Shown in pieces: positions 1,941 through 37,410 of a stretch of 38,589 bases of DNA (the stretch's first letter is position 1; each line of letters starts with the position of its first letter). Source of the DNA: a virus. The stretch is taken from the IMG/VR virus record IMGVR_UViG_3300025769_000312, positions 1 through 38,589 of that record. The stretch is one strand, 5' to 3'. Under the pieces are notes generated by a model. That model did not search any database and had not been told where the DNA came from. It saw only the letters and a program-made list of their open reading frames with translations. The translations under genes were made by a program, and so were the position numbers.

Positions 1941-2239
1941 TTTTTCTTCCTTTGTTTGTAAACAAGTTGGTCTTTGCCTGGATCTGGAAGGAATTTGACC
2001 AGGCCTTCAATCACGCCAATAAGCTGAGGCGAGTCGTATGGATTGTCGTTCCAGTTCATTTTTGCCATTACGTCCGGATGGGCGTCTTTGTATCTCTCCC
2101 ATTCATTTTCATGTGAGAACCTGATTGGACTGATTGCAGTTTTTCCTTTCTCGTAAAGAAATCGATCGCCAAAAGATGTGTTGTGCTGAATTAGGTGAAC
2201 TTTGGGCTCAGATGTTTGAACCAAAAAGGTGATTTTCAT
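1937..2239 (-). CDS. Hypothetical protein, 100 aa
   Basis: A basic small protein (MKITFLVQTSEPKVHLIQHN...) ending in a Lys/Arg tail (YKQRKKK). No known domain recognised. A good start follows a GGGGGAAG-type ribosome-binding site, 8 bases after the previous stop. Its stop overlaps the next ATG. One copy of the TTACGTCCG word (2068-2076) lies inside it, where the coding strand reads through the codons for PDVMAK. Confidence 0.7.
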   Translation of the reverse strand: MKITFLVQTSEPKVHLIQHNTSFGDRFLYEKGKTAISPIRFSHENEWERYKDAHPDVMAKMNWNDNPYDSPQLIGVIEGLVKFLPDPGKDQLVYKQRKKK

Positions 2240-2247
2240 TCTTCCCC

Positions 2248-2460
2248 CTAACTATGAGTGTAGCCGTCAGGCTCTATGCCGAGCCACATGCCTTGCCACT
2301 GAACCATGATGCAGTCTGGCCCCGGCAGGACCGTTCGACGAAATGTTAGGTATGTTTGCAGACCATTTCCGTTGCTTCTGTATTTGGGAATTAGACTGCT
2401 CGGCATACCTCTTAGCCAAATTAGGTAAAGAGATTCTCGTTGCTCTCGTGTAATCTTCAT
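2248..2460 (-). CDS. Hypothetical protein, 70 aa
   Basis: A small protein beginning MKITREQRESLYLIWLRGMP, unknown function. The start at 2460 is chosen because GGAGAC lies before it and the ATG overlaps the preceding stop (2457-2459) as ATGA. A start at 2511 would add 17 residues but overlaps more. The N-terminal half is helical and basic, the C-terminal half hydrophobic and Trp-rich (MVQWQGMWLGIEPDGY). Confidence 0.65.
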   Translation of the reverse strand: MKITREQRESLYLIWLRGMPSSLIPKYRSNGNGLQTYLTFRRTVLPGPDCIMVQWQGMWLGIEPDGYTHS

Positions 2461-2705
2461 TTGCTTGTCTCCAAGAAAAAGAAGCTGTCTTTTATGCGGC
2501 CAAAGAAACAACCAGGGCCATTGCCTTCCATGTCTTTGCTTGGGTAAATCTTCATTCCGTTGCTTAAAACGATGACAAAAACTTTGTCGTAAATGTTTCC
2601 GTGGTCAGCCCACATTTCATCGTCTAGCTCTTGTTTGGTCATCTCTCGAATTTCGACAACCTTTTGCCCGATTAAAATATTTGCAGGCAGATTTTCACCT
2701 TTCAT
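2457..2705 (-). CDS. Hypothetical protein, 82 aa
   Basis: Unknown function, mixed alpha/beta in appearance (QKVVEIREM, YDKVFVIVLSNGMKIYPS). The start at 2705 (MKGENLP) overlaps the end of the preceding gene and follows a GAAAAAAAATGAAAGG-type purine run. A longer start at 2732 is possible. Its stop overlaps the next ATG, so it belongs to the coupled chain. Confidence 0.65.
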   Translation of the reverse strand: MKGENLPANILIGQKVVEIREMTKQELDDEMWADHGNIYDKVFVIVLSNGMKIYPSKDMEGNGPGCFFGRIKDSFFFLETSK

Positions 2706-2955
2706 TTTTTTTCTCCCAAAGAATGCAACCAAAGTTAGGGCGCGTACCTAGAGACGCTGAATATCCTGATGCGTCTTGAGCTATGGCAAAGATGTGTTCA
2801 GGAACAATCCAATCGAAGGGTTCTTTTTCCTGCCATTCTCCAACGGTTTCACGGTGAGGAATCTTGGAGCATTCACCAAAACCAGCGTTAGCCCAGTGCT
2901 TTTCTGGTGAACTCCAATGAATGCAATTTAAGCAAATGCATGCGCCTGGAATCAT
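2695..2955 (-). CDS. Cysteine-containing hypothetical protein, 86 aa
   Basis: The N-terminus carries CICLNCIHW, followed by GECSKIPH and a later FGCILWEKK. Four or five cysteines spaced this way suggest a small zinc-binding fold, but I recognise no named family. The ATG (2953-2955) overlaps the TGA of the preceding gene, a coupled ATGA junction. It sits next to another cysteine-patterned small protein, which hints at related functions. Confidence 0.7.
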   Translation of the reverse strand: MIPGACICLNCIHWSSPEKHWANAGFGECSKIPHRETVGEWQEKEPFDWIVPEHIFAIAQDASGYSASLGTRPNFGCILWEKKNER

Positions 2956-3838: not shown

Positions 3839-3989
3839 TGGGTTTCTCCTTTTTCTTTAGACGCGCTTGATCGATGCGATCAGCCATCTCGTCTATCTGG
3901 TCTTGCCGGGCTTTCTCGCTGGCTTGTTCGTACGGAATGCCGTTGTTGAGGTTACGTTCAAAATGTTTGAACCATTCTTCTTTACTCAT
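3804..3989 (-). CDS. Hypothetical protein, 61 aa
   Basis: A highly charged helical protein (MSKEEWFKHFERNL... EMADRIDQARLKKKEKP) of unknown function. It overlaps the preceding gene by 8 bases and the next by 35. Composition alone suggests an amphipathic helical pair that could bind a partner protein. Confidence 0.6.
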   Translation of the reverse strand: MSKEEWFKHFERNLNNGIPYEQASEKARQDQIDEMADRIDQARLKKKEKPNEVLAPDTKSS

Positions 3990-4302
3990 CGGTCTTTCCT
4001 TTCAGAATCCCACCTAAGCCTCGTCTTTCAAGACGGCTTTTGATGATGTTGACCCGAGCGTCAATGGTATTGAGCTGTTGTCCATGCTCATGAAGTATTC
4101 GGATTACATGCTTGATGTCTTTGTGAAGGCGATCGTTGTCGGCAAACAGTTCTGAAAGCATTTCATCTGCGAGCTTACGTCCGACTTTTTCATCGCCTGA
4201 TATCTTACGTGCGAGCTTTTCCCGGTAGTCTCGGACTTTTTTGACGTTCCAAAGCGTTCTAGCGGCCTCTATGAGCCCTACAGCGGCTATTGGTGACTTC
4301 AT
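3982..4302 (-). CDS. Hypothetical helical protein, 106 aa
   Basis: A basic, helix-rich protein with a heptad-like C-terminal half (LFADNDRLHKDIKHVIRIL...), predicted coiled coil around residues 45-85. Unknown function. It begins 20 bases after the 156-residue gene. It contains a TTACGTCCG copy (4175-4183) within the codons for VGRKLAD. Confidence 0.65.
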   Translation of the reverse strand: MKSPIAAVGLIEAARTLWNVKKVRDYREKLARKISGDEKVGRKLADEMLSELFADNDRLHKDIKHVIRILHEHGQQLNTIDARVNIIKSRLERRGLGGILKGKTDE

Positions 4303-4322
4303 TAGGGTCTCCGTGCGTTGTT

Positions 4323-4793
4323 CTAGATGTGAAGATCCATTCCAACAGCGACATTAGCTTGGTATTCTTCCAGAACTTTCCAAAATACCTCGCCCCACTC
4401 TTTGAGGTCTTTCTCGTCGCTGACCATTCCCCACCAGCCCATAGAGCCTCTTTCAATCCAATCGCCTTTAGGAGTTAAGACGGCAAAGGCAAACGCTTCC
4501 TGCTCTACTTTTTTGTCGTTGTGAGCAGCGATTACGTCCGAAACAAAGGCCATGTTTCTGTTTGTTTGACGGGCTTTCTCAGCAAAATTAAAGCCATCGT
4601 CACCGTGATCTCGGTACTGATTCAGAAGCACACCATCGTAACGTCCACCCGGTAAATACCAGTCCCATTTCCAGCTTTCTGTCCCTAATCCTTCTTCGAA
4701 GGGTGCTAGCTGAAAGTTGACACTTTCCTCAACGAGGTTTGGATCATCCATTGACTTGAGTGCTGTGATGACGATTGTGAAAAAGTGGCTCAT
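4323..4793 (-). CDS. Conserved phage protein with WDWY..GGRY motif, 156 aa
   Basis: The N-terminal half contains KWDWYLPGGRYDGVL, a signature I associate with small phage and bacterial proteins of unknown function that share a WDWW/Y-x-x-GGRW/Y core. The remainder includes GWWGMVSDEKD and a helical, acidic C-terminus. AAGGAAAG precedes the ATG. It is the first gene downstream of the intrinsic terminator at 4930-4968, so it needs readthrough or its own promoter in 4794-4930. No catalytic residues can be assigned. Confidence 0.75.
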   Translation of the reverse strand: MSHFFTIVITALKSMDDPNLVEESVNFQLAPFEEGLGTESWKWDWYLPGGRYDGVLLNQYRDHGDDGFNFAEKARQTNRNMAFVSDVIAAHNDKKVEQEAFAFAVLTPKGDWIERGSMGWWGMVSDEKDLKEWGEVFWKVLEEYQANVAVGMDLHI

Positions 4794-4820
4794 TTGCTTT
4801 CCTTTTTTGCATTTACGTCC

Positions 4821-5051
4821 GAAGGCTCCACCTTCTGGTTTGGTTTTTGGTTCTTTTCAGGGCAAAGCCCTGGTGTTGAGCGCTAGGGCTCGGGAGCCCT
4901 GGCTGTAGCTCGGCATTTCTTGGTGCCTAAAAGTCAAAAAAGAAGGGAGAAGGCCGAAGCCCTCTCCCTCAGATTCACCGAGCCCTTATCCTTAGTGGTG
5001 AGGTTTTAGCGCCTCACTCCCGGGTGGGCCTCGCCATTCGGTGTCCTGGCG
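4821..5051 (-). other. Hairpin-rich 3'UTR/leader between two leftward genes
   Basis: The 258-base gap 4794-5051 holds six perfect inverted repeats with 5-6 bp or longer arms: 5032-5036/5047-5051, 4998-5003/5012-5017, 4945-4954/4959-4968 (the terminator), 4885-4890/4895-4900, 4858-4863/4867-4872 and 4821-4825/4831-4835. On the leftward transcript two precede the terminator and three follow it in the leader of the 156-residue gene. No open reading frame with a ribosome-binding site is present. Confidence 0.55.
4930..4968 (-). terminator. Intrinsic terminator with UUCG tetraloop
   Basis: On the minus strand a 10-bp stem (arms 4959-4968 and 4945-4954, one G-U pair) closes on a C-UUCG-G tetraloop and is followed by TTCTTTTTTGACTTTT. 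This is a textbook rho-independent terminator. It lies about 85 bases past the stop of the 183-residue gene and would cap a short early transcript from the 6106-6609 region, leaving downstream genes dependent on readthrough or antitermination. Confidence 0.85.
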
Positions 5052-5603: not shown

Positions 5604-5616
5604 GATGTTGATCCTC

Positions 5617-6609: not shown

Positions 6610-7158
6610 ATGGCTCGACAACCAAGGTCTAAGCTCTCACAGCAGGAAGAAGCATTCTGCATCGCTTTTGTTACCAATAATGGTAAGCGTAAAGACGCTG
6701 CACTCGAGGCAGGATACGCAGAATCAGCCGCAGGCGTCTCAGCTTCAAGGCTCTTGCAAAGACAGCATGTCCTTGATCGAATCCAACAACTCAATCAAGC
6801 CCAGTTTAGAGCTCTAGGACCAGGACTACTCGCGGGTATGGTCAAACTCGCAGAGAAGGCTAAATCAGAGAAAGTCAGACATGACTCTCTCAAGGATCTA
6901 CTCGATAGAGCCGGATATAAGCCGATAGAACAAGTACTTAACCTCGAATCAACAACATCAGAAGATGTCTCTCTTCTAAGAGAGCGAGCGCAGAAACTGC
7001 TCTTGGCTATTGATAAGAAAGAACAACAGATTAACCAGGATCAGGTTAATAAGGATGGAGATACGAGTGAGGGAGTGTCCAACGACACTACACACACGTC
7101 AAAACCTAAGCCGGTGGGTGATGATATTGACGAAGGAACGCCTGGTTCTGTCCATTAG
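6610..7158 (+). CDS. terS: Terminase small subunit, 182 aa
   Basis: The N-terminal half matches the small terminase (Terminase_2-like) helix-turn-helix layout: LSQQEEAFCIAFVTNNGKRKD then AALEAGYAESAAGVSASRLL, followed by helices that would form the oligomerisation part (to about residue 120). The C-terminus is hydrophilic and low-complexity (residues 135-182). TerS recognises the packaging site on phage DNA and guides TerL. TAAGG precedes the ATG. The gene is separated from terL by a 537-base non-coding stretch, which is unusual because the two are normally adjacent; the packaging site may lie in that gap or in 6106-6609. Confidence 0.85.
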   Translation: MARQPRSKLSQQEEAFCIAFVTNNGKRKDAALEAGYAESAAGVSASRLLQRQHVLDRIQQLNQAQFRALGPGLLAGMVKLAEKAKSEKVRHDSLKDLLDRAGYKPIEQVLNLESTTSEDVSLLRERAQKLLLAIDKKEQQINQDQVNKDGDTSEGVSNDTTHTSKPKPVGDDIDEGTPGSVH

Positions 7159-7695
7159 GTCTCATGAGGGTGATTACTCTCCCTCAGGTGCACAATCTTC
7201 GCTTGTTCTTTGTTAGTTTTTTTTGTCTATCAGTGACCCCTATGTCCCCCAATTGATCTCCGATCTTGCGGGGAGATACTCCACTCTACATTGGCCCTAA
7301 AAAGTTGCGGGTGTTGCATGGATGTCACAGTTGATATTTGGTGTTTGGGTTAGCTCACCCGTGTTTGGTGTATAAATTGGTGTTTTGGGTGATTTTGTCT
7401 GACAGACCAAAGTGTTGTTATTAGGGGGTTTTTTGGACAGAAGCACTAACGAGTGCCAAATTTGGCACTGTTTAATTATGGAGTGCCAATTCTGTCACCA
7501 CCAAAGGGTTGTATTTTGGTGTTAGAGAGTTGGTTTTCTGAGATATTTTGGGGAGAGTATTTTGCCCGGCTCGAGGATCTTGAAGATCGCAGAGTGTTTT
7601 TGGTGACGGGGCGGAAAGACAGATATCATGGATTTGGATATTCGACTAGATGTGTCCCTGCGACATGTTGTCGCACCCTATGTTAGGAGTTGTTG
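7159..7695 (+). promoter_or_regulatory. G/T-rich non-coding region between terS and terL
   Basis: The 537 bases carry no credible gene. The + strand is strongly G/T-biased from about 7300 to 7620. Visible elements: an inverted repeat TGAGGG/CCCTCA at 7166-7187; an eight-T run near 7215; ATCTCC/GGAGAT around 7255-7277; a repeated word TTTGGTGT (7337, 7364, 7515, with ATTGGTGTT at 7377); TCACCC/GGGTGA enclosing 7357-7390; and an operator-like palindrome at 7452-7469. TATAAA at 7371-7376 is a possible -10 box. The stretch could hold the late promoter, an origin, or the packaging signal. Confidence 0.45.
7443..7487. promoter_or_regulatory. Operator-like palindrome cluster
   Basis: AGTGCCAAATTTGGCACT (7452-7469) is a perfect 18-bp palindrome. 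A GCACT half-site lies just before it (7443-7447, forming an inverted repeat with 7452-7456) and another AGTGCC half-site follows at 7482-7487. Four half-sites in 45 bases suggest cooperative binding of a dimeric repressor or activator. A near copy (15 of 18 bases) lies at 37042-37059. The binding protein is unknown; the Cro-like product of 36100 is a candidate. Confidence 0.55.
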
Positions 7696-9156
7696 ATGTC
7701 TGACACGGATCTCGAGAATGTCCCGCTAGACGATCAGTACGCTGAGCTGGCTCGGATTACGGATGAGCTCGAGCGGTACGAGCGGTTTAACAAGTTGCTG
7801 CTTTACTATCCGTATCCGAAGCAGATGCAGTTTCACGCGGCGACGGAGCGTGAGCGTATGCTGATGGCCGCCAACCAAGTAGGCAAAACATGGTGTGCTG
7901 GCGCTGAGGTCGCTTTTCACATGACGGGGCTATATCCGGATTGGTGGCCTGAGACAGCGAGGCGATACAGCACTGGGACTGAGTGGTGGGCTGGTGGTGT
8001 TACGGCCGAAACGACCCGCGATAACCCTCAGAGAGTGCTCTTAGGCCGGAAGAGAGAATACGGGACCGGCATGATCCCCTTGCAGGCCCTAGACGTTGTG
8101 CAGCTCGCCCGTGGGATACCAGACGCCGTGGACAACTTCACTGTCACACACGTTTCCGGCCAGACCAGCTATTGCTGGTTTAAGTCCTACGAGAAAGGGC
8201 GTGAGAAGTGGCAGGGAGAGACCCTTAGAGGCGGTATCTGGTTCGATGAGGAACCGCCCCTAGAGATCTACACAGAAGGCCTGACACGGCTTAACGTGTC
8301 CCAAGGGCCTACCCTACTGACGTTTACCCCTCTAATGGGAATGTCAGAGGTTGTCAGGCGCTTTATGCAGCCCGAAGAGAAAGCCAAAAAGTCTGCCCGG
8401 TTTTACGTCCAGATGGACCTGGAAGATGCTCAGCACTACAGCGACGAAGATCGCGCTTCAATCATCGACCAGTATCCAGATCACGAAAAAGACGCCCGTG
8501 CACGGGGTATCCCGATGCTCGGTTCTGGGCGTATCTACCCGATCCCCGAAGAACAGATCAAATTTAACCTATCGGACATGGCTGGTGGCTTCCCCTCGTA
8601 CTGGCGTGGATGGGGCGCAGTTGACTTTGGAGACTGGGACCATCCAACGGCCGCTGTATTCATGCGCTTTGATGCAGATACCGATACCATCTATCTCTAT
8701 GACGCCTACCGGCAGAGCCGAGAGAAACTTGCAGTCCACACCAAAGCGATTAAAGGACGCGGCAAATGGATCCCGATGGCATGGCCGCATGACGGTCATA
8801 AGCATGACGGCCGTTCAGGTGAACCGATCGCAGATTTATGGCGTAAAGACGGCGTAAAGATGCATAAAGAACACGCCACGCATGAAGCCGGCGGTTTTTC
8901 CGTCGAAGCCGGTATTACTGAATTGCTTGACAGGATGAGCACTGGTCGGTTTAAGGTGGCTTCACACTTAAACGATTGGTGGGACGAATTCCGTACCTAC
9001 CATCGTAAAGATGGCAAGATAGTCAAAGAACGAGACGATTTGATGGATGCAACCCGGTACGCGATTATGATGCAACGAATCGCGAGATTGCCGGGCGACT
9101 CAAATCTACGCCCTCAGTCTTTTGGCACCGTCGAAAATTACTCGGTTTTTGGTTAA
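7696..9156 (+). CDS. terL: Terminase large subunit, 486 aa
   Basis: The packaging motor. An N-terminal ATPase has Walker A AANQVGKT (about residues 58-65) and Walker B GIWFDEEPP (about residue 184). The C-terminal RNase H-like nuclease has AVDFGDWDHP (about residue 309) and late acidic residues in ERDDLMDATRYAI (about 444-455). The length is normal for podoviral TerL. The ATG at 7696 has AGGAG six bases upstream, better than the TTG two codons earlier. TerL assembles on the portal with TerS, pumps DNA into proheads and cuts the concatemer. The portal gene follows after three bases. Confidence 0.95.
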   Translation: MSDTDLENVPLDDQYAELARITDELERYERFNKLLLYYPYPKQMQFHAATERERMLMAANQVGKTWCAGAEVAFHMTGLYPDWWPETARRYSTGTEWWAGGVTAETTRDNPQRVLLGRKREYGTGMIPLQALDVVQLARGIPDAVDNFTVTHVSGQTSYCWFKSYEKGREKWQGETLRGGIWFDEEPPLEIYTEGLTRLNVSQGPTLLTFTPLMGMSEVVRRFMQPEEKAKKSARFYVQMDLEDAQHYSDEDRASIIDQYPDHEKDARARGIPMLGSGRIYPIPEEQIKFNLSDMAGGFPSYWRGWGAVDFGDWDHPTAAVFMRFDADTDTIYLYDAYRQSREKLAVHTKAIKGRGKWIPMAWPHDGHKHDGRSGEPIADLWRKDGVKMHKEHATHEAGGFSVEAGITELLDRMSTGRFKVASHLNDWWDEFRTYHRKDGKIVKERDDLMDATRYAIMMQRIARLPGDSNLRPQSFGTVENYSVFG

Positions 9157-21958: not shown

Positions 21959-24900
21959 TGGGACAGGTTTTTGACACAGACGATTTTGTTGTCTCCCGAG
22001 AGAGGTTTTGGGAGAAGTTCGATCTCGACTGGAAGCCAACCTTACGAGAGACGGTTGGGGCTGCAATGCGTCTCGAGAATACGTTTGGCTCTATTCAAAG
22101 CAATCGGACTGACTATAGCTTTGGGCAGTACGTAGAGGGCTACGATCCTTTTGATGATCCGATTGTCCCTGTTGGTGCACTTGGTGACGTTACCTACAGC
22201 CGATCTCCTTCAGAGACAGCTGCGATTGTCAGGAACTTTAAGAATCGTGAGCGAGACCAGCTGATTCTTTCTCAGTCAAGCACGGGTACTCGTTTGTTTG
22301 GTGAGGCCATTGCCGGCGTGACGGACCCTGTGAATTTGCTTTTTGGCGGTCCATTGGTTGCTGAGCTTGGCGCAATGAAGACCTTTATCCGTGGCGTTCA
22401 GTCAGGAGCCAAGGTTGGGCTTCAAAGCAGCGTTTCGACAGAAGCAATCCTTCAGGCAACTCAGGGAAATAGAACCCTAAATCAGTCGATTGCAAACATC
22501 TTTGCTGGGACTGCCATTAGCGCAGCGACGTTTGGCGTGATGTCGTTTGGTAAGTATCGGACAAGCATTTCGGCTAGAGAGTTTGACGATATCTCGACGG
22601 CAGTGCACAGCGAGATGTCAGGGACGCCTAAGCTCTTTAGTGGGAATGAGAACATCATTCCGCAGATTGAGTTCCAGCCGCCTGGCTCTAGGCGTTTTTC
22701 ACCTGGTGTTGGTGGTGCAAGCCGCACCCGTGGTGCTGCGCCTGTCAGGGCTGAGACTGGTGATGTCCCGACTTGGAGCTATCTTGACTCAGCTCAGCAA
22801 TTTATGTTCCCGGGGCCGAGAACCCGCAATTCTCCTTTACGGTCTGCTGCGCGTGTTTCTGAGCAGCTAGTAGAAAACAACACCCTGAAGAAAGCCAATC
22901 TTGAGGGCCGGAAGTCTCCGCAAGCCGTTGAGTCTTTGGCAAAGCGTCACCAAGGCGCAATGGTTACAATTTTAGGAGAAATCAACGATTACTATCTAAA
23001 GTACCGAACCAGGGCTAAGAATGACACCAAGATCCTGTTTTCTTCTGCTATTCGAGACAGATTTGCGGATCTTACGAACAAGCGCCGGGACCATCTTTCG
23101 GTGGCTGAGTTTCGTCGTGAAGTTACGGCCTCGCTTAGGTCTGGCAAAGCCCACGTTCTGCCTGAAGTAAATGAGGCTACGTCCCTGGTGCGTCAGATGT
23201 TTGATGACTACGCCGACGATGCTATTGGGCTTGGCCTGCTGACCAGAGAACAGTTAGGCGTAAACTACGTTCCTCGGATGTGGAATACGGCTGAGGTCTT
23301 TAGGCGTCGATCGCAAGTGATTCAAGACATCATCGATGATCAGAATAGCCGTGGTCTAAAGCCTGACAAGGAGGAAATTACCGCCCAGGTTGATGCAATT
23401 ATCAATTCTGGCCGTGCGGTTGAGGGTCTGGATGAATCTGGCCCCAGAGGAATCTTCCAAAATAGAAAGCTGGATATCGATGAGTCCAAGTTTGAGGACT
23501 TCTTGATTAGTGACATTGATGACATTCTTCGCAGTTACGTCCGTGTTGCTGCGGTTGACCTTGAGCTGGCGCGTAAATTTGGCCGTGTTGACATGGCCGA
23601 TCAGATCCAGGCGATCAATGCTGAGCGAGACTCCCTTATAAAGAAGGCTCAGAGCCCAGAAGAGCGCGTTAAAATCGCTGATAGGGCTGCCAAGGACGTT
23701 GAGGCCATCGAGGCCATGCGAGACATTTTAAGGGGCATCTACGGGCTTCCTGAGAACCCTTATGGCATTGCCAGTCGGACAGCTCGCCTTGCAATGGATA
23801 TCAACAATCTTTTGATGCTTGGTGGGGCTACATTTGCTTCTTTGACCGATATGGGCCGAGTAATCATGGCTGGCGGTCTTAAAGACACTTTTAAGGCAAT
23901 GAACCTGGCAACGACCAATTTCCAGGTAGCTAAAGCGGCTGCTAACGAAGTTAAGCTGGCTGGCACAGCCTTAGATATGGTCCTTCAGACCACAGGAATG
24001 CGTCTGACAGGAATGCAGGATCTCCCGCCTCGGTTTACCAGGGCTGAGTCAGCGATGGGCTACCTGACCAATGGTTTTTTTGTGGCGAACCTTTTGTCTC
24101 CTTGGAACGCCTTTATTAAGCAAGCTAGTGGCGTTGTGATCTCCCACAAGATGCTCGGTGACATGCTTAGCTGGTCAAATGGCAAGCTTGGCAAAAAAGG
24201 GCAATCGAGGCTCCTTTCAGCCGGCATTGACAGTGGAGATGCTCGGAAAATCGCTCAGCTATTCAAAGAATACGGCGAGACTGTCCAAGATGTGCGAATG
24301 CCAAACACACAGCTTTGGGAAGATCTACCTGGCTGGCAGCCTGGTACTGCTAAACGAATGCAAACAATCTACCGGGCAGCCTTAGCTCGAGATGTTGATG
24401 CGACAGTTGTTACGCCAGGTGCAGGCGATCAGCCCTTATGGACCCATAGCACACTCGGGCGACTTGTCGCCCAGTACAAATCATTCGGTTTTGCTGCTGC
24501 GAATAAAGTTTTAGTGCCTGGCATCCAGTACAAAGACGCCGCTCAGTTGCATGGCGCAATGATGATGGTCTTTTTTGGTGGAATGGTATCAAAACTTCGC
24601 GATCGTCAGCACAATCAAGAAAGCAAGTTCGAACTCGACAAGTTTATCGTTGATGGAATCGATCAGTCAGGTTTGCTTGGTTGGTACTTTCAGGCAAACA
24701 ACATGATCGAGGCAATCACGGACAACCGAATTGGCGTTCGTCGGATTATCGGTCAGGGCGAAGATGCGAACTATTCGTCCCGGTATAAGCTAGGCCAGAT
24801 CTCTCCGACCTTTTCGACGTTAGGCAAGGCCGGCAATGTCGTTGCAGATGTGATAACAGGCAACATTGACTATCAAACCCGCAGAGATGCTATGGGTTTG

Positions 24901-25008: not shown

Positions 25009-25017
25009 GACCAAAGG

Positions 25018-28000
25018 ATGACTGTAACAACTACAATTTCCCGCATGGAATACACCGGCAACGGTGTCACCACGACCTTTGCCTATAGCTTTAAAATCAA
25101 CACGGACTCCGAGCTTAAAGTCTGGCTGGTTACGACAGCAACGGGCGCTAAGACACTTCAGACCCTGACAACTCATTACACAGTAACGAATGCTGGCGAT
25201 GTTAGTGGCGGTAATGTCGAGATGATTACGGCACCCGCATCAACGGAAGAACTGGTTATTGAGCGATCGACTTCGACAACCCAGGCCGTCGATTACGTTG
25301 CAAACGATGCCTTTGCAGCTGAAACCCATGAAGGGGCTCTCGATAAGCTGACTTTGATTGCCCAGGATCTTCGTCGTGACGTTGATCGATCGATGCAGCT
25401 GGACAAAGAAACAGCTGATGCTGTTTCAACGATTATGCCGGTTCCCGAGGCAAATGCCTTTGTTGGTTGGAATGCTAGTGCCGATGCGCTTGTAAATTTC
25501 ACCACTACGCTTACAGGGACAGCCGTTACGCCTTTTATCGCAACATTGGTTGATGACACTAGCGCTGCTGCTGCTCGAGCGACCCTAGAGGCTCTTGCAG
25601 AAGATCTAGACCAGGATCGTCATGCTACTTCGTCTGGCACAAACACGATTACTCTAACGCTTGACCCGGCTCGTACAGCTTACACAGCTGGCGATATCGT
25701 GACGTTTAAAGCAGGCGGGACAAACACGGGTGCCGTTACTCTCAACGTGAATAGCCTTGGAGCAAAGACTGTTCAGTTCCGTGGAGCTGCGCTGGCTGCT
25801 GGGGACATTACTGCAAACAATTTTGTCGTTTGTGGGTATGACGGAACTCAGTTCCAAATGCTTTCACCTGTTGTTAAGCCCACAAGGGCAAGCCTTGGTT
25901 TAGACACAACAGACGACCCTACATTTAGTGATGTGACGGCGGACAGCCTTACGCTTGCTGCCGTCAATGCGATTACTTCGACCAACGCAAACTTTACAAA
26001 GCTGGCAAAGCAACGCTGGCTGGAAGACTTCTTCGAGGCTCGCTACTTTGACTTGCAAGCACATAACCCTAAGGTCATTAACGGCACTCTTTCTTGGTGG
26101 CCTAAGCATGGCAACCTCGATTGGATCGCCAGCCAGAACGCTGGCGACATTGACTTGCTTGCGGTTGATTGGCGCGACGGTACAACGCTTAAGACCTACA
26201 CTAGTTCGGATTTCTCGCAGCTAGGCGGCAAGACTTTGACCAGCATTGCGGCCGGGCATGCTGTCGTCGTGGTAGGCACTACGGCGGGGTATGTGTTTCT
26301 TGACTTCCGCAATGGTGCTCCAACGCAACGGCTGCGCGATACCGGAAGCGGTCTTGTCGATAATGATATCCACGCACTTGCGGTGGGCGTAGGCGGTCCT
26401 GACAACCCTGTTGTCGGCAACGGCCTTGTTCCAGTTATCGGCGGCCAATACGGCGCCGGCACTGATGTAGCCTTTATTGAGAACCATCGCGGCGTACACA
26501 ACCAAAACAACGGCGGCAACGGCGGCGCAATGTATGCCGTTGGTTTTACTGGTGGGTACTTTAATTATGTAACCAGCCCAACAACAAATCAGGTTGTTCA
26601 AACGTCAGATTTTGCTTCCGATATTTCCGCTGATGATTGGGGGAATGCGGGCCTTGCCGTCAACAACAGCTGGCCTCGCTTCTTTGGTGGCGAAACTTTC
26701 GCTGCAAGCAATGGTCGGGACACACTTCTTTTCGGTTCTGCTGAGGGCATTAGCTTGGTGCATAACCCGGCGCGTGACATTCCGAATAGCAGCGTTGGCT
26801 TCGACATGGACAGCAGCCGGTGCATTGCCCGCGCTGGTAACCATAAGAGCAGCTGGTTTGTCGATAGCATTACGGCGGATCGCGGCCCTGACGGCACGAC
26901 GCTGACACACACTGGTGGCGGACTAACAATCGCTTCGGCGAACGGCACCAGCACAAAGCAGATGGTGTCAGGCTTTGACGCCTCGAACTATGCGGAAGTC
27001 TCCAGCAACGTCTTCAACAACGCCTCGGACCCGTTCGGCTTTGCGGTTGATTTCCGGTCGGATGGAACCCTCAACGCATCGAACAACTACATTCTCAACT
27101 GGCACGATACAAGCGCCAACACCTCACGTGTCTACGCTCTTTGTGGGACGGGTGGAATGGCAGTCGGTGTCTATGATAGTGGCGGGTCAACAACGGGCAT
27201 CGAACTAACCTTCGGTCCTACTGTCGCGGAATTAAACGACGAGCCAGATCGCGTTCATACGCTGGCAGTCCTAGTTCGTCCGGGCAAAGGGGTTTTCTGC
27301 TGGCTTGACGGTGAGTTCATGGGCTTTGATGGGAATAGTCTTTTCGTCAATTCGATGGCTCCAAGCGGTACAAACACTTTCCGTGTTGGTGCTGCGGTTG
27401 TGAATGCGAGCTACGGTTCACCCAGCGAGCAACCCTTCGGCGGCTCCATCGGTGAGATTACGCACTTTGAGGATGCTATTGTCTCCAACCCCGACGCTCA
27501 CGCTTGGTGGGCCGCACACCGCATCCGTTCATACGACGAAGATGTTGTCTGCGTTCTCCCGGCAAACGAAACGCCTGACGCTGGCGACCTAGACAAGACG
27601 GCAGCCGGTCTTGCCCGTGGCATTGTCTGCGGCGCGACCAAGACCTTCTTGCTCGACGGGCTGGCGGTCACTGAGGTTGCTCCAACCGGGATCAACGCGC
27701 ATGTGGATCAGGTCTACCGGAGCCGGAACGAGTACGGGATGCTTGATAGTGTCGGTGCTCATTACCAGAACCGGGACGCTATCGACATCGAGGAGACGTC
27801 TCGCGCGATGGTGAGTGCTCCGCGTTGGCTAGAGCCGGCCGGCAAGGTTGGTATTGATGCCTACATGGCAGCAAGCAAATCCAATGTCACTGGAGATGCT
27901 ACGAACTACACAGTTCCGATCGATACGGTAAAGAAGCAAACCGGCTTAGTGCTGGATACAGCGACCGGGGTAATCCACGTTCTTGTTTCCGGCTATTACG

Positions 28001-28292: not shown

Positions 28293-28700
28293 ATGGATCA
28301 TAAAAAACAATACCCCGATATCTCCTTGGCCCCAGAGTGGCTCAAGACGATCAGCGTTGCTGATGGCGTTGTCGGGCTCACCGTTGAACAACTTGAACTC
28401 GCGGGGCGAAACAATCCCGCAGATAACGCCAGCGCGCTTGCTAGTGCCCAGCGTAAGTTTGATAACGGGGGCTTGGACGCCCTTCGGGAGTTTCTTTACC
28501 AGAAGTCCCTCACCCATCCCTCGATTGACACAGCGGTGAAGCTGGCAGCATCGGACCTTGATATGGCACGCATTGCTGAGGACTTACTGGTCTACCTAAA
28601 AGGGAAGTTTCCAGAAGACGACTTCACCGCCGTTATTGGGGTAAAGGGTATGGAAAAAGTAAACGCAAGACGCAAAGTTCGGGGGGATACTCCGCTATGA
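28293..28700 (+). CDS. Hypothetical protein, 135 aa
   Basis: A helical protein (DISLAPEWLKTISVADGVVGLTVEQLELAGRNN ...) of unknown function just after the fibre. Position allows a fibre chaperone or a small baseplate-type part, but no motif supports either. It ends as ATGA with the next gene. It shares the base composition of the distal fibre, so it may have moved with it. Confidence 0.7.
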   Translation: MDHKKQYPDISLAPEWLKTISVADGVVGLTVEQLELAGRNNPADNASALASAQRKFDNGGLDALREFLYQKSLTHPSIDTAVKLAASDLDMARIAEDLLVYLKGKFPEDDFTAVIGVKGMEKVNARRKVRGDTPL

Positions 28701-29305
28701 TGCGTCAGCGCATATCTTTTTCGGCAGCCATGCATATTTACCCCGTGCTAGGTTTACGTCCGATTCAGGGCTGGAAAAGACAACAGAAGAAACGCCATGT
28801 GTTTCCGACCATGCCTCTCATAAGAGGGGCCATTCTTGCGCTACTGATTCTCCCGCTTTTTGCGGGTGTGTCCCTTGCTGAAGTCTTTGCAAATTCTCAA
28901 GGGCAGTTATGCTCCCGTGAGGGACCATCCCAACTCATCGCAATGGTTGCTGACAGCGACTACAAGGAACGACACATTGCCACGTCGTTTAGTGCCAAGC
29001 ATCGTATGCTTTTTTACTGGACAGTAAATATCGAGACAGGAACATGGTCTGTCGTGCGCGAAGCATCTACTGGGATTTCCTGCATCACAGATGCGGGTGA
29101 ACAGTGGGTGCGGGACGGGAATGAGGTTTTGGCTATTCTGATGATCCGAAAGGATCAACCTGCTTTATTCAAAATAACCATCAACGGGGATGACTGGATT
29201 GTTTCCATTCAGATGGCCCCAGAACTCCCCATGATAATAGGGGTAGACGGCGGCTCTCAGTGGGAATGGCTGGGGCAGCCAAGCCCCGCTGGGTTCAAAA
29301 TCTAG
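28697..29305 (+). CDS. Putative secreted/periplasmic protein, up to 202 aa
   Basis: An internal stretch MPLIRGAILALLILPLFAG followed by VSLAEVFA is a good Sec signal peptide with cleavage after SLA or nearby. The mature part is beta-rich with two cysteines (QLCSREG, GISCITDAG). If translation begins at the coupled ATG (28697) the hydrophobic segment sits 38 residues in; if at 28811 it is a normal signal peptide of a 164-residue precursor. Neither has a strong ribosome-binding site, but the ATGA overlap favours 28697. An exported phage protein in a late operon could alter the cell envelope or block superinfection. No family recognised. Confidence 0.6.
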   Translation: MMRQRISFSAAMHIYPVLGLRPIQGWKRQQKKRHVFPTMPLIRGAILALLILPLFAGVSLAEVFANSQGQLCSREGPSQLIAMVADSDYKERHIATSFSAKHRMLFYWTVNIETGTWSVVREASTGISCITDAGEQWVRDGNEVLAILMIRKDQPALFKITINGDDWIVSIQMAPELPMIIGVDGGSQWEWLGQPSPAGFKI

Positions 29306-29644: not shown

Positions 29645-30595
29645 ATGCCAGTTGCGGCAATAGACGACGATACTTTTGTAAGGCTGTTTGAGGAACGCGG
29701 CGCAGAAGAGATTTCCAAGGTTTTGGACATTTCGATTCGTTCCGTTTATGCCCGCCGTCAGAGGATGGAAAAGAAGATAGGGCGGCAAATCAAAGCCCCC
29801 GGCCACCCCGGCAGAGTGACCCGAACCGGCATTCAGCACCCACCCAAGACCGACATAGAGGTTCCTGACGGCTATGTGATCATTTTCAGCGATGCCCACT
29901 ACTGGCCTGACTTGATATCGCCGGCACACCGTGCCTTGGTGAAGTTAGCCAAAAAGCTGAAGCCTAAGATTGTTATTGCAAATGGGGATGTCTTTGACGG
30001 GGCGTCCATCTCTCGGCATCCGCCTATTGGTTGGGAGTCGGCTCCTACTGTGGAAGAGGAGATTGGAACGTGTCAAAAGCGATTGCGGGAGATCCAAAAG
30101 GCGGCGGGTTCTCCAAAATTGATCTGGACCCTTGGGAACCACGATGGTCGATTTGAGACAAGGTTGGCAACAGTAGCGCCTCAGTACGCCAAAGTTCACG
30201 GGGTACACCTCCGAGATCACTTCCCCGACTGGGAGCCTTGCTGGGCCACTTGGATTAACGATGAGATAGTTGTTAAGCACCGCTTCAAGGGCGGTATACA
30301 CGCGACTCACAACAATACTCTTTGGTCTGGAAAAACGATGGTCACAGGGCATCTTCACAGCCTCAAGGTGACGCCGCTGACGGACTACAATGGTGTTAGG
30401 TATGGCGTTGATACGGGCACTCTAGCGGACGTTTATGGCCCTCAGTTCACGGATTATACAGAAGGGAACCCATCAAACTGGCGGTCTGGCTTTGCTGTTT
30501 TGAAGATCGTTGACGGCTGGCTGATGATGCCTCAGCTTTGTCAGGTAGTTGACGAGACTCATGTGGAGTTCCAGGGGGAGTTGATCGAGGTTTAG
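29645..30595 (+). CDS. Calcineurin-like metallophosphoesterase with N-terminal HTH, 316 aa
   Basis: All metallophosphoesterase motifs are present: SDAH (residues 82-85), GDVFD (114-118), GNHD (164-167) and GHLH (235-238). An N-terminal ~50-residue helix-turn-helix-like segment (AEEISKVLDISIRSVYARRQRM) may bind DNA. Such enzymes in phages are thought to act on nucleotides, cyclic nucleotides or nucleic-acid ends, but the substrate here is unknown. TAGGAG precedes the ATG. A counter-defence role (cleaving signalling nucleotides) would be an inference only. Confidence 0.88.
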   Translation: MPVAAIDDDTFVRLFEERGAEEISKVLDISIRSVYARRQRMEKKIGRQIKAPGHPGRVTRTGIQHPPKTDIEVPDGYVIIFSDAHYWPDLISPAHRALVKLAKKLKPKIVIANGDVFDGASISRHPPIGWESAPTVEEEIGTCQKRLREIQKAAGSPKLIWTLGNHDGRFETRLATVAPQYAKVHGVHLRDHFPDWEPCWATWINDEIVVKHRFKGGIHATHNNTLWSGKTMVTGHLHSLKVTPLTDYNGVRYGVDTGTLADVYGPQFTDYTEGNPSNWRSGFAVLKIVDGWLMMPQLCQVVDETHVEFQGELIEV

Positions 30596-30788: not shown

Positions 30789-31004
30789 ATGATGTTCGAT
30801 AGTGCTGCCACTAGGGATGCTCTGAAACAGGTCTATGCTGATGGGTTTGAGGCGTACTTGAACAATGAGCCGATAGATAACCTTGATTACTGGCCCGATC
30901 ACAGAATGACCAGCAGGCTATATGATGAGTGGATTAGAGGCTGGAGAGACGCGAGAATCCAGGATCCTGCTCCATTTAGGCGATTAACTCCAAAGCATGG
31001 CTAG
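30789..31004 (+). CDS. Ribosome modulation factor-like protein, 71 aa
   Basis: The middle reads YADGFEAYLNNEPIDNLDY and the C-terminus YDEWIRGWRDARIQD. This follows the RMF layout: a GY/GF-x-A(G) helix, a Pro/Tyr linker and a W-x-x-GWR-[ED]A signature. RMF dimerises and silences 70S ribosomes into 100S particles. A phage-borne copy could adjust host translation or protect ribosomes late in infection. The family call rests on motif similarity; the linker differs from E. coli RMF and lacks its Cys. Two ATG codons in a row begin the gene. Confidence 0.6.
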   Translation: MMFDSAATRDALKQVYADGFEAYLNNEPIDNLDYWPDHRMTSRLYDEWIRGWRDARIQDPAPFRRLTPKHG

Positions 31005-31392
31005 CCTAAATATTGGTAAGAGTGAGCTGGCTTACGTCCGCTCTTTTTCTGGCTATTGGTATCTCGCATCTCCTTACACGCATTACCCTCGTGGTCGAGA
31101 GGCTGCCTTCAGGATAATCTCAGATGTTGCGTCTTGGTTGATGGTTAGGGATGTGGTGGTGTTTTGTCCGATAGCTCATAGCCACCCGATATGCGAGCAC
31201 GGTGAAATCGGTGATCTCGGCCTTGATTTTGACTTTTGGATGAAGATGGATGGCTCTTTGATGGATAGGGCAACAGGGTTAATCGTCACGATGCTAAACA
31301 GCTGGAACACGAGCAGAGGTGTGTTGGAAGAGATCAGACGATTTAGTAACGCTGGCAAACCAATCTTTTACGTGAGGAATGAGATTGACTGA
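30997..31392 (+). CDS. DUF1937 / nucleoside deoxyribosyltransferase-like protein, 131 aa
   Basis: The core YWYLASPYTHYPRGREAAFRIISDVASWLM, then VVFCPIAHSHPICEHGE, WMKMDGSLMDRATGLIV and SRGVLEEIRRFSNAGKPIFYV, matches DUF1937, a family related in fold to nucleoside 2-deoxyribosyltransferases (the SPYTH start and S/T-x-GVxxEI motif with a likely catalytic Glu). It may act on nucleotides or modified bases. It overlaps the neighbours at both ends. One TTACGTCCG copy (31032-31040) lies near its start. Confidence 0.75.
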   Translation: MASLNIGKSELAYVRSFSGYWYLASPYTHYPRGREAAFRIISDVASWLMVRDVVVFCPIAHSHPICEHGEIGDLGLDFDFWMKMDGSLMDRATGLIVTMLNSWNTSRGVLEEIRRFSNAGKPIFYVRNEID

Positions 31393-33169: not shown

Positions 33170-33366
33170 TAGGCGTGTCCTTTACACTTTTTGCACATCC
33201 TGTTGTGGATGCCTTCAGACTGAAACGGCTTTGAGCATGTAAGGCAGATACGCTGACGAGCATCGTACTCTTTGTCTGCGTTTGGTTTCTTACGTTCCCT
33301 GATTTCTTTTAGCTTTCGATCTTTCCATCGTTGAGTAGTGCCAAGCTTGGCAGGATCAAAACTCAT
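33169..33366 (-). CDS. Small zinc-ribbon protein, 65 aa
   Basis: A basic N-terminal half (KLGTTQRWKDRKLKEIRERKK) and a C-terminal CLTCSKPF ... MCKKCKGHA, giving two CxxC pairs that should bind one zinc. Such small finger proteins in recombination/replication modules often contact nucleic acid or RNA polymerase, but the target is unknown here. ATGA overlap with the previous gene. Confidence 0.75.
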   Translation of the reverse strand: MSFDPAKLGTTQRWKDRKLKEIRERKKPNADKEYDARQRICLTCSKPFQSEGIHNRMCKKCKGHA

Positions 33367-33641
33367 GAGTGCAGCATCGACACTTCATCATTGTCGTCCT
33401 CTGTTTTGATTTTTGTGATGTCCAAGCCAATGACCTTAAGGGCTCTGGCTGTATGAGGGATTCGCTCAATCAGCTTACGTCGTTCCATTGCATCTAGCAT
33501 TTGGACGATTGCCCCTGGCGTAACCTTTCGGTACTCAGCCATCTCATCAATGCTTGGCGCGTAGCCATGCTTTTTGATGTATCTGGCAATGAAGTCTAGA
33601 AGCTTCTTCTGCTTTTTAGTCGGAGGAAACGCCATCTTCAT
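33363..33641 (-). CDS. LexA-like winged-helix DNA-binding protein, 92 aa
   Basis: FPPTKKQKKLLDFIARYIKKHGYAPSIDEMAEY ... GAIVQMLDAMERRKLIERIP matches the LexA N-terminal winged helix: helix one, the GYAPS-turn, the recognition helix and a wing. There is no C-terminal protease domain, so it cannot self-cleave. It could bind host SOS-like operators or phage control sites and is one candidate for sensing or competing in the host DNA-damage response. The start could also be two codons later. Confidence 0.75.
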   Translation of the reverse strand: MKMAFPPTKKQKKLLDFIARYIKKHGYAPSIDEMAEYRKVTPGAIVQMLDAMERRKLIERIPHTARALKVIGLDITKIKTEDDNDEVSMLHS

Positions 33642-33837
33642 TTTCTTTAAGTGTCAACCCTGCTAATCGAGCAACATTTTTCCACTTGCTTGTTGAGAGT
33701 TCTTTCATCAAACGCTTCATGCGAGCCTCATCGATCTTATTTGTTGGGCTCTGTTCTTTGATGCGTAAAAGTGATGATGCAGCCCAATAAACTCGGGCTT
33801 GCGACTCAAGGCTGCTTACTCTTGCTTTAAAGGCCAA
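33616..33837 (-). CDS. Hypothetical protein, 73 aa
   Basis: A basic helical protein that appears to start at a TTG codon (33835-33837), with GAGG nine bases before. It overlaps the YqaJ nuclease gene by 22 bases upstream and the winged-helix gene by 26 downstream. ARMKRLMKELSTSKWKNVARL is a likely amphipathic helix. Unknown function. Confidence 0.55.
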   Translation of the reverse strand: MAFKARVSSLESQARVYWAASSLLRIKEQSPTNKIDEARMKRLMKELSTSKWKNVARLAGLTLKENEDGVSSD

Positions 33838-34619
33838 ATCCTTCTTCCTCCACGTGCATCTCGTTTAATGAGGATACCGTGGCCTGAAGCCTCACCGGCA
33901 TCCAAAGGCATGAGTTCCTTCAATGCCTTGTCTGCTTCGGTGAAGATCTTAGACGCATCCTGATTTTCTAGGTAACGGCCGGCTTCAACTGCCCATTGAT
34001 TATTGCCGGTCATATCAACTTTTTTGACGAAGGCTTTTTTGACTTCGATCTTTTCAGGGGTTGGTGGCTCAATGTCCATCACGATGTACTTCCAAAAGGC
34101 TGCTTCACGTTCCATGAGGTCTGCGATGTATTCCTCGTCTTTCCAGATGCGCCGGTATTGATGCCGGCTGTTACCAAAAAAGACAGACAGAACACACCAA
34201 GGCAGATTCATGACAGCCATGTAGTGCTGAATCTGCGGATAGTAGCGTTCGCAGAGATCTTCCATTTTGGCTTGCTGGCTAGTGTGCTTAGCCTCGAAGA
34301 GACCTTCAGTATCGGCATTTGGATGTGTTGCTAGACCATCGATCTGCGCCACAGAGAAGCCGTTTGAATGCGTGTAGACCTGTTGGTTGGCTGCTGCCCT
34401 ATCAACCTTGTACTGAGACGTTTTTTCGAGCCACTGAGCGTTAAAAGGTTCTGTTGCTGTGCCCATGTGAACGGAAAGTTTGGTGGAAAGATCGTCTTTT
34501 TCTTCCCTGCCGGTCATTTGTCTCCATAGTTTAGGGAGATCCATGTCGTACAAGACGCCATTGGCAATAACCATTGCGGCAGAACCGCCGATTTTACCGT
34601 GGTCTACATACTCAGCCAT
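33816..34619 (-). CDS. YqaJ-family viral recombinase/exonuclease, 267 aa
   Basis: A PD-(D/E)xK nuclease of the YqaJ type (lambda exonuclease-like): GTATEPFN (Glu57), the QIDG aspartate (Asp94), and FEAKHT (Glu109, Lys111), in order and spacing of the family. It should chew 5' ends of double-stranded DNA to give single strands for the ERF annealing protein. The start at 34619 has AAGGAG nine bases upstream and forms a TAATG overlap. A TTACGTCCG copy (34619-34627) spans this very start junction. Confidence 0.85.
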   Translation of the reverse strand: MAEYVDHGKIGGSAAMVIANGVLYDMDLPKLWRQMTGREEKDDLSTKLSVHMGTATEPFNAQWLEKTSQYKVDRAAANQQVYTHSNGFSVAQIDGLATHPNADTEGLFEAKHTSQQAKMEDLCERYYPQIQHYMAVMNLPWCVLSVFFGNSRHQYRRIWKDEEYIADLMEREAAFWKYIVMDIEPPTPEKIEVKKAFVKKVDMTGNNQWAVEAGRYLENQDASKIFTEADKALKELMPLDAGEASGHGILIKRDARGGRRIWPLKQE

Positions 34620-34831
34620 TACGTCCGTTCTCCTTGCCATTCAGCGAGTAGAGCCAGTTCTTCTTCGTCGCTGGTTTGAATAGCTTCCCGGCCTTTTGGA
34701 CAAGCACAGCGAATACAAACAACGTGCGAAGGCTGTTGTTTGAATGTCGGATCGTTATCGACCTCTATCAGCCGTTCGATCTCAACATAGCCAGTGTCTT
34801 TGCAAGATTGGCATGAGACTTGATCGCCCAT
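34619..34831 (-). CDS. Zinc-ribbon protein, 70 aa
   Basis: CQSCKDTGYVEIERL (residues 7-21) and CIRCACPKGREA (about 38-50) give two CxxC motifs like a DnaJ/rubredoxin-type zinc ribbon. It sits between SSB and the YqaJ nuclease, so it may assist recombination. Family is common in phage modules but without assigned activity. Confidence 0.75.
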   Translation of the reverse strand: MGDQVSCQSCKDTGYVEIERLIEVDNDPTFKQQPSHVVCIRCACPKGREAIQTSDEEELALLAEWQGERT

Positions 34832-35292: not shown

Positions 35293-35320
35293 AGTTTTTC
35301 TTTCTCAATGAGTTTCAGGA

Positions 35321-36025
35321 TTAGCTGGATTGCTCAGCGATGTGCTTTTTACGTTCAGCAAGTGCAACCCGAACGATCTCAGCCAGCTTTGGATCTTCTT
35401 TCTGGCAGAGTTCGTAACTTGCTTTGATCGTCTCGATGTAGGTTTTGCGTCCTTTTTCCGTATCGATCATAGCGATTTCTTCGGTGGTCTTTTTGACCCA
35501 TTCATCCCAGCTTGGGAAGTTGAGCTTGTTGGTTGCAGCAACGGGCTTTTTTGGTTCGTCTTTGCCCGGCTTGTGTTCTGAGGTTTGATCCATGTCAGGA
35601 TCGTCACCAGTCTCGAGCCCAAGAGCTTTTAACAAGGCGTACTTCACGGCATAGCTGATTGCCTTGCCGGGCCCCTTGTCTTGATTGTCAATGCCGTAAC
35701 CCAGGCTAGGAACGACAAAGAAGTCTGTATCCGGATCGTCGATGTTGACAAACTTTACATCGAGCTGAACTTCGGTTCGGTTTCCATTTTGAGCAAAGAC
35801 GAGATTGCACGGATGATAGAGGACGCCGACTTCGACGAGTGCAGGACGAACCTTTGCGGTCACATCGTCATGTGACGTGATCGAATAGTTCATGCCCGAT
35901 TTTTTTTCCTTCCGGACGTAAGTAACTTTCTGCATCGCTTCGTGGAGTCGTTGGTAGACGTTCATTGGTATCCCTAATCTGTGTTCGGGTGATTGTGCGC
36001 CTTGAAGCAAATCTTTCTTGCTCAT
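35321..36025 (-). CDS. erf: ERF-family single-strand annealing protein, 234 aa
   Basis: The ERF (essential recombination function, P22-type) signature is clear: HEAMQKVTYVRKEKKSGMNYSITSHDD, VGVLYHPCNLVF, SLGYGIDNQDKGPGKAISYAVKYALLKALGLETGDDPDMD. The C-terminal third is Lys/Pro-rich linker and helix. It anneals complementary single strands made by the YqaJ exonuclease to recombine and circularise or concatenate the genome. I chose 36025 (MSKKDLLQG) with AAGGA eleven bases upstream; 35965 (MNVYQRL) is an alternative. First gene of its leftward unit. Confidence 0.9.
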   Translation of the reverse strand: MSKKDLLQGAQSPEHRLGIPMNVYQRLHEAMQKVTYVRKEKKSGMNYSITSHDDVTAKVRPALVEVGVLYHPCNLVFAQNGNRTEVQLDVKFVNIDDPDTDFFVVPSLGYGIDNQDKGPGKAISYAVKYALLKALGLETGDDPDMDQTSEHKPGKDEPKKPVAATNKLNFPSWDEWVKKTTEEIAMIDTEKGRKTYIETIKASYELCQKEDPKLAEIVRVALAERKKHIAEQSS

Positions 36026-36099
36026 TCGCGATTTTGTCCTTTGCAAAGTTGAACAGTTTGTTAAACTAGAGGTTCCCTCAAATTTCAAGGGTTTTTTAC
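36026..36099. promoter_or_regulatory. Divergent control region between erf and the Cro-like gene
   Basis: On the + strand TTTGCA (36040-36045) and TAAACT (36062-36067) form a weak sigma70-like pair with a 16-base spacer. The dyad AGTTT-gtt-AAACT (36055-36067) overlaps the -10 box and would be a natural operator for the adjacent Cro-like protein. The leftward erf unit must also start in this short region. Confidence 0.5.
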
Positions 36100-36303
36100 A
36101 TGCCGAAGCAATCTACGATCGATCGAGTCTTTTCGGCTTGGCCTAACACGGCTGAGCTCGCGAGAGATTTGGATCTCGATTATTTCACTGTCAGACAATG
36201 GAAGAGTAGAGAGTCCATCCCAGGTCGTCATTGGCCTCGAGTTGCAGCCGCTTACCAGACTCGAACAAAGGAGCCATTGATCTTAGATGGTCTTGGTCGA
36301 TGA
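36100..36303 (+). CDS. Cro/YdaS-like HTH regulator, 67 aa
   Basis: A compact helix-turn-helix: NTAELARDLDLDYFTVRQWKSRESIPGRHWPRVAAA. Size and layout match Cro- or YdaS-type regulators. It likely binds an operator in the divergent region immediately upstream (36055-36067) and controls the replication and recombination units. No larger CI-like repressor partner is seen. AGGG lies eleven bases before the ATG. It ends in an ATGA overlap with the RuvC-like gene. Confidence 0.8.
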   Translation: MPKQSTIDRVFSAWPNTAELARDLDLDYFTVRQWKSRESIPGRHWPRVAAAYQTRTKEPLILDGLGR

Positions 36304-36758
36304 GTGTATTGGCAATTGATCCAGGCACGACTGCTGGCTTTTACGTTGTCAATAAAGACAAGCATTCAGTCTTTACACTCAAGCTCAAACAGAAAGAGAT
36401 AGGTTCTCGTCTTAATACGTTTCTTGAGCATCTTGATGTCATCAATAACCGTCATTGGGTTAATCACATCGTCTTTGAGGATCCTTTTGTCAGTTCCTAT
36501 CGCTCTGCTCGTTTTCAATATGCAATGACGGGCTTAATTTACATTGCTGCCTACCGTCAAAAAGCAACGATCACATCTCTTCATCCAAGCAAGATCAAGA
36601 AACTTGCTACTGGCAAAGGCAATGCTAAGAAGGATGAAATGATCGCAGCAGCAAAAGCTGCGGTTCCTGACAATATTTACATCGATAATGAGCACGAAGC
36701 CGATGCCTATTGGGTCTATCGGACTTGGCTCCACAATCAGGAGACAGCTAATGCTTAA
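36300..36758 (+). CDS. RuvC-like Holliday junction resolvase, 152 aa
   Basis: RNase H-fold motifs in order: LAIDPGTTAGF (Asp7), IVFEDPF (Glu60/Asp61) and NEHEADAYWVY (Glu133, Asp135). The length is right for RuvC-like crossover nucleases. It would cut Holliday junctions or branched DNA so that concatemers can be packaged. The ATG at 36300 overlaps the TGA of the Cro-like gene. Longer in-frame starts would overlap that gene without a ribosome-binding site. Confidence 0.85.
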   Translation: MSVLAIDPGTTAGFYVVNKDKHSVFTLKLKQKEIGSRLNTFLEHLDVINNRHWVNHIVFEDPFVSSYRSARFQYAMTGLIYIAAYRQKATITSLHPSKIKKLATGKGNAKKDEMIAAAKAAVPDNIYIDNEHEADAYWVYRTWLHNQETANA

Positions 36759-37410
36759 TCAAACAAGCCTACCTCTTTCTGTCATTACAGATGGCCGGAT
36801 CACTGACGCAGCTTTTAGATTGGCTTGCTACATATCGTGGTGCTCTACGGACGGTGAATGGGCTGAGGATGTAGAGAAAGTCTCGTCTAACCTTGGCTTG
36901 TCCAAACGGAACTATTTTCGGCTCAAAGGATATCTGATCGATGTTGGTATTCTGATTATCACAGAGACCAAATACCGTTATTCGGTCACATTCAGTTTAA
37001 AAACTGAGACATTTCAGCCAGAAACAATTAAAGAAGTGAAAAATGCCAAAAATGGCACTAATGAATCTTTCTTTTTGGATCCTGTGCCACATGCTCCACA
37101 GGCTTCAAAAATGCCTCTTAAGAGCGTTTCTGACTTTGAGGGGTTCTATGACACCTATCCTCGCAAAGTAGGCCGTAGATCGGCTGAAAAAGCCTATGCG
37201 GCTGCTTTAAAGCGTGGCGCTACACCAGAACAGCTCAAAACGGCTGCTGAAGCCTACTTGGCTTTTACGTCCGAAAGGAATACTGAGGCCAAATTCATTC
37301 CACATCCGGCCACTTGGCTTAATGCCGATCGATGGGAAGACGACGACATTAAGCCTTTTGTCGGCCAGCTTCTTCCGTCTGAAGGTGAATTGGCAGTCCA
37401 GACCATCTAA
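36751..37410 (+). CDS. Replication initiator, O-like / DnaD-like, 219 aa
   Basis: N-terminal winged-helix part (ITDAAFRLACYISWCS ... KVSSNLGLSKRNYFRLKGYLID) followed by a linker and the C-terminal segment FEGFYDTYPRKVGRRSAEKAYAAALKRG ... FIPHPATWLNADRWEDD, which I recognise from many phage replication initiators and helicase loaders. It would bind the origin and bring in the helicase. AGGAGA is placed perfectly before the ATG at 36751. It overlaps the RuvC-like gene by 8 bases. An operator-like sequence lies inside (37042). Its stop overlaps the end of the helicase gene by four bases. Confidence 0.8.
   Translation: MLNQTSLPLSVITDGRITDAAFRLACYISWCSTDGEWAEDVEKVSSNLGLSKRNYFRLKGYLIDVGILIITETKYRYSVTFSLKTETFQPETIKEVKNAKNGTNESFFLDPVPHAPQASKMPLKSVSDFEGFYDTYPRKVGRRSAEKAYAAALKRGATPEQLKTAAEAYLAFTSERNTEAKFIPHPATWLNADRWEDDDIKPFVGQLLPSEGELAVQTI
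37042..37059. promoter_or_regulatory. Operator-like near-copy of the 7452 palindrome
   Basis: AATGCCAAAAATGGCACT matches the palindrome at 7452-7469 in 15 of 18 positions, keeping both GCC/GGC arms. It lies within the replication initiator gene, so origins located inside initiator genes (as in lambda O) are a possible parallel. Confidence 0.4.

Follow-up and report, generated by a model that had tools for sequence, protein, structure and literature searches.

A strand-biased 9-bp word in a podovirus-like phage genome resembles the nick words of tf-type phages

Localized nicks in phage DNA were discovered in T5 in the 1960s, and to our knowledge the purpose they serve is still unexplained; the nicked cases we know of are few and come mostly from phages of Pseudomonas and Escherichia. 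In Pseudomonas putida phage tf, 14 mapped nicks fall in a single strand at the 9-bp word TACT/RTGMC, and every site with a single substitution also lies on the nicked strand (PMC3517423). In phage Rembedalsseter, 13 breaks, all strand-specific, map to WACTRTGAC; this word is also present in 61 tf-like genomes, where it clusters on the right side of the terminase large subunit gene terL (PMC11780129). The consensus at the nicks of T5 also occurs in the strand that is not nicked (PMC3517423). Here we describe an oriented 9-mer, TTACGTCCG (reverse complement CGGACGTAA), in a stretch of viral DNA of 38,589 nucleotides (IMG/VR record IMGVR_UViG_3300025769_000312), hereafter the window, and compare its behavior with that of these systems.

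The first and last 142 bp of the window form a direct repeat with a single mismatch, indicating that the record is a closed circle or a complete genome of about 38.4 kb. Its gene content is that of a podovirus-like phage, with terminase genes at 6610-9156, a terL product 37% identical to those of phages tf and LUZ24, and further genes for portal, scaffold, capsid and tail proteins, a YqaJ exonuclease, SSB, Erf, RuvC, a replication-initiation protein and DnaB; the portal, scaffold, capsid and tail names are based on comparisons to relatives and annotated phages. No DNA polymerase gene was found in the window. The ORF at 33363-33641 encodes a LexA-type DNA-binding domain on its own, with no protease domain attached, and is a possible phage regulator. 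The dnaB gene (37407-38198) lies on the strand opposite terL in the window and on the terL strand in the two closest full relatives, contigs G003 and G007, while RuvC, the initiator, Erf, SSB and YqaJ keep the same orientation in all three, pointing to a local rearrangement at dnaB.

Counting both strands of the window, we found ten exact copies of TTACGTCCG, nine on the plus strand and one on the minus strand (Table 1), making it the most frequent 9-mer ahead of a runner-up with six copies. The dinucleotide- and codon-preserving shuffles that a sequence-only reading of this DNA had proposed as a check never reached ten copies: dinucleotide shuffles gave an expectation of 0.12 (0 of 100 attained ten), and 1,000 codon shuffles, which kept every protein and the per-strand pool of synonymous codons, gave a mean of 1.46 and a maximum of five. 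That reading had reported ten exact copies far above expectation, nine of them on the plus strand whatever the direction of the gene and encoding different peptides, and each of these points holds, with nine of the ten copies falling within ORFs of either direction and spread over several reading phases. All nine one-mismatch copies are also on the plus strand and are possible weak sites, whereas two-mismatch copies are nearly even (46 plus, 37 minus), and the strand excess of exact and one-mismatch copies together was matched by none of the 1,000 codon shuffles. The core of the word, TTACGT, is the most strand-biased hexamer of the genome at 27:2 in the window and 26:2 on the circular genome, a direction in which the codon null alone pushes it to about 15:5. 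The copies near 2065 and 34616 have 13 bases in common, GCCATTACGTCCG, as had been noted; across all copies, the flanks beyond the 9 bases hold no significant common information (p = 0.08), and an extended motif was dropped on that account. Together, these data confirm that the over-representation and orientation of TTACGTCCG are real and non-random, and a phage DNA-level signal in packaging or replication, one of the functions first proposed for it, stands as a candidate.

Table 1. Copies of the oriented word and reference features in the window
Feature	Position	Strand	Context
TTACGTCCG	2068..2076	+	within minus-strand ORF 1937-2239
TTACGTCCG	4175..4183	+	within minus-strand ORF 3982-4302
TTACGTCCG	4532..4540	+	within minus-strand ORF 4323-4793
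TTACGTCCG	4813..4821	+	sole copy not in a listed ORF
TTACGTCCG	23535..23543	+	within plus-strand ORF 21958-25008
TTACGTCCG	28754..28762	+	within plus-strand ORF 28697-29305
TTACGTCCG	31032..31040	+	within plus-strand ORF 30997-31392
TTACGTCCG	34619..34627	+	within minus-strand YqaJ exonuclease ORF 33816-34640
TTACGTCCG	35913..35921	-	sole minus-strand copy; within Erf ORF 35321-36088
TTACGTCCG	37265..37273	+	within replication-initiation ORF 36688-37410
One-mismatch copies	starts 1425, 1674, 4205 (4205..4213), 8000, 8403, 10111, 18415, 28229, 37900	+	
terL (terminase large subunit)	7690..9156	+	reference point for orientation
Metallophosphoesterase, N-terminal helix-turn-helix (phrog_221)	29645..30595	+	
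End repeat	1..142 and 38448-38589	+	142-bp direct repeat

The copies had been described as enriched in early or regulatory arms of the genome. Because the record is circular or complete, the two arms join into one continuous region, and the enriched part is more accurately placed to the right of terL. With terL as the starting point, the nine plus-strand copies occupy 0.41-0.93 of the circle, a distribution mildly different from uniform (Kolmogorov-Smirnov (KS) p = 0.044) and indistinguishable from those of the words of tf, LUZ24 and Rembedalsseter (KS p 0.76-0.99). Counted in the same way, TACTGTGAC in tf gives 11 plus and 0 minus exact copies, 6 and 0 with one mismatch, and 31 and 30 with two, so that both genomes combine strongly one-sided exact and one-mismatch copies (9/1 and 9/0 in the window) with a near-even two-mismatch class. 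A blind 9-mer scan retrieved the published words of tf, LUZ24 and Rembedalsseter with scores of 47.5, 30.9 and 31.8 to 37.1, and ranked the window among them at 39.1. We ran a strict filter on 43 sequences, some of them fragments and including the window and its near-identical contig G002; it passed only the window and G002, the tf-type words, codon-repeat words in G607, G611 and MW202674, and one word each in G007 (TACTATCAT) and HTVC010P (AGATGCTAG). The k-mer scan did not detect the nick site of phiKMV, whose sites are few and longer, and it therefore misses some nicked phages.

The 9-mer itself is not clearly conserved among relatives. G003 and G007, at about 72% capsid identity and 34% G+C, contain zero and two copies, and apart from this pair in G007 it is limited to the window and two near-identical IMG/VR contigs. 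The shorter TTACGTC lies mainly on the terL strand in G003 (7:1) and G007 (6:1), a summed 13:2 with p = 0.007 for a motif chosen post hoc, and this bias is absent in four right-arm fragments (L318-L321) at about 57% identity. Tandem pairs of TTACGTCCG in IMG/VR were considered and set aside, since the 30 contigs with such pairs are by estimate close to chance plus tandem duplication. One apparently unrelated viral contig (L114:3268-3320; 40% GC) contains tandemly arrayed GAGTTACGTCC units in which TTACGTCCG occurs five times without mismatch, at 11-bp spacing. In a literature search for TTACGTCCG, none of the papers listed had a phage connection.

The pattern of TTACGTCCG matches that of the words at which single strands are cut in a few cultured phages, and the packaged DNA of this phage is therefore probably nicked too. 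We consider it moderately probable, by analogy, that a strand-specific nicking activity on phage DNA recognizes TTACGTCCG/CGGACGTAA and that packaged genomes bear about nine or ten one-strand interruptions, as in tf, phiKMV and T5. Such an activity would read TTACGTCCG/CGGACGTAA in the phage DNA, with the minus strand predicted by analogy with tf to be the one cut, within 5'-CGGACGTAA-3', and would act late, around packaging. We infer the nick itself, the strand cut, the late timing around packaging and the enzyme responsible; nicks have been mapped in tf and Rembedalsseter and predicted in LUZ24, whereas the window is known from assembled sequence, which cannot show nicks.

The main rivals to nicking are a Chi-like signal and another DNA signal that involves no cut. 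A Chi-like or other oriented recombination or replication word, lying in the direction of packaging and recognized by a helicase-nuclease of the host or the phage, would account for the single orientation relative to terL irrespective of genes and would suit a phage whose recombination genes include an exonuclease, Erf, SSB and RuvC. Host genomes are rich in the words that their own enzymes read, Chi among them, and we therefore searched 536 distinct bacterial genomes (Alphaproteobacteria, Gammaproteobacteria and others; sets of 23, 289 and 229 with five overlaps). None was enriched, the highest density being near 14 copies per Mb, compared with about 260 per Mb for the phage, in a set that may not include the host; a Chi-like role appears rather unlikely, and the earlier idea of host uptake words finds no support in these genomes. 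We hold it similarly doubtful that TTACGTCCG marks sites for some other DNA-acting phage protein in packaging, condensation or replication-fork signaling without nicking. The sequence facts are the same for such a signal as for nicking, and placement to the right of terL suits packaging, but we found no known example of a non-nicking signal with this signature; the nick words in tf and Rembedalsseter do show it.

The leading comparison first offered was with oriented stoperators like those of mycobacteriophage L5, phage repressor sites that stop transcription and also occur in D29; here the repressor would be the small LexA-like helix-turn-helix protein. The asymmetric, oriented, many-copy word is common to both cases, a LexA-type gene is present, and the D29 word reaches a comparable enrichment score. 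In our D29 control, however, 13 of 15 stoperators are outside genes and their strand flips with gene direction, minus in the rightward arm and plus in the leftward arm, and the D29 word, unlike TTACGTCCG, is often found on its minor strand (15/4, or 18/8 with one mismatch). Stoperators are thus intergenic and reverse with transcription, and TTACGTCCG is the opposite on both counts, mostly intragenic and not changing strand with gene direction, which speaks against this kind of transcriptional operator, contradicts the earlier proposal and makes this explanation quite unlikely. A by-product of chance or of codon and peptide usage is highly improbable: synonymous shuffling lifts the expectation from 0.12 to 1.5 with some strand bias, yet none of 1,000 shuffles exceeded five copies or attained the strand excess, and the copies fall in several phases and encode differing peptides.

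We also considered which enzyme could perform the predicted nicking. The metallophosphoesterase at 29645-30595 belongs to phrog_221, a family common to the window, G003, G007, tf, LUZ24 and Rembedalsseter and lacking in seven of the relatives compared. Its predicted fold combines a calcineurin-like domain with a helix-turn-helix, and matches in the Protein Data Bank to Vps29, Mre11, LpxH and PP5 do not tell nuclease from phosphatase. The nicked phages phiKMV and T5 lack the family, D29 and phiAB1 have it, and 19 contigs with a 52-64% identical phrog_221 homolog yielded no convincing word, observations that count against phrog_221 as the nickase and leave this protein a weak candidate. The D29 member, a phosphoesterase encoded at L332:36785-37549, is of the family shared by tf and the window; we know of no nicks in D29. 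No HNH gene was present among the ORFs scanned.

Oriented words also occur in other phages. In G007, ACTATCAT occurs nine times on one strand and never on the other (9/0), always terL-antisense, at 0.91-0.98 of the terL-oriented genome, with sites at 26886-26916 (L096:6886-6916) and seven more at 24177-26796, all in the roughly 2.7 kb that precede the terminase genes. A 23-bp tandem repeat holds two of these copies, each immediately next to CGGACGTAA. ACTATCAT resembles the LUZ24 nick word TACTATGAC and is on the same terL-antisense strand; its copies are possible nick words or promoter -10 elements, and at least some may be promoter-like. Likewise, TACTATCA is terL-antisense at 8:1 in Vibrio phage 275E43-1 (L334) and 5:0 in HTVC010P (L335), together 13:1 with a post hoc p = 0.002, and the copies are mostly to the right of terL. 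HTVC010P also has CTAGCATCT at 6/0, with one-mismatch copies at 17/0. These post hoc hints from G007, 275E43-1, HTVC010P and LUZ24 suggest a shared rule. As a tentative and somewhat less than even prospect, site-specific nicking of packaged DNA may be widespread in unrelated marine and estuarine podoviruses, with a 9-bp word that changes fast from lineage to lineage under a common rule, a place on the terL-antisense strand with concentration to the right of terL, and with words that can be found from sequence alone, such as CGGACGTAA here, ACTATCAT in G007 and TACTATCA in 275E43-1 and HTVC010P. If this signature finds the known cases and new lineages, the purpose of localized nicks would become testable across many phages; the new lineages indicated include the isolates 275E43-1 and HTVC010P, and genome comparison would help identify the nickase.

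Among described systems, the phiKMV-like sites (CGACxxxxxCCTA/CTCCGG) share with the window an orientation to one strand of a podovirus, and differ in their longer gapped consensus, their few copies and the lack of phrog_221 in phiKMV. T5 nicks (R/GCGCRGG, genes sciA and sciB) are likewise localized interruptions of one strand, unlike the window in their short degenerate consensus and in belonging to a large siphovirus with no phrog_221 match. The tf type is set apart by a different word, by a replication module that in the window consists of DnaB, an initiator, Erf and RuvC, and by the one exact copy in ten that lies on the other strand here. TACT[AG]TGAC has no copy on either strand of the window, and with TACTRTGMC absent the window is not in the tf word family and is similar in behavior only. 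The behavior in common is that of a 9-bp word with 9-14 copies in the tf-type phages of ~40-45 kb and ten here, placed mostly within genes irrespective of their direction and to the right of terL, in genomes with homologous terL genes and a phrog_221 metallophosphoesterase; in tf, the nicked strand is the one antisense to terL.
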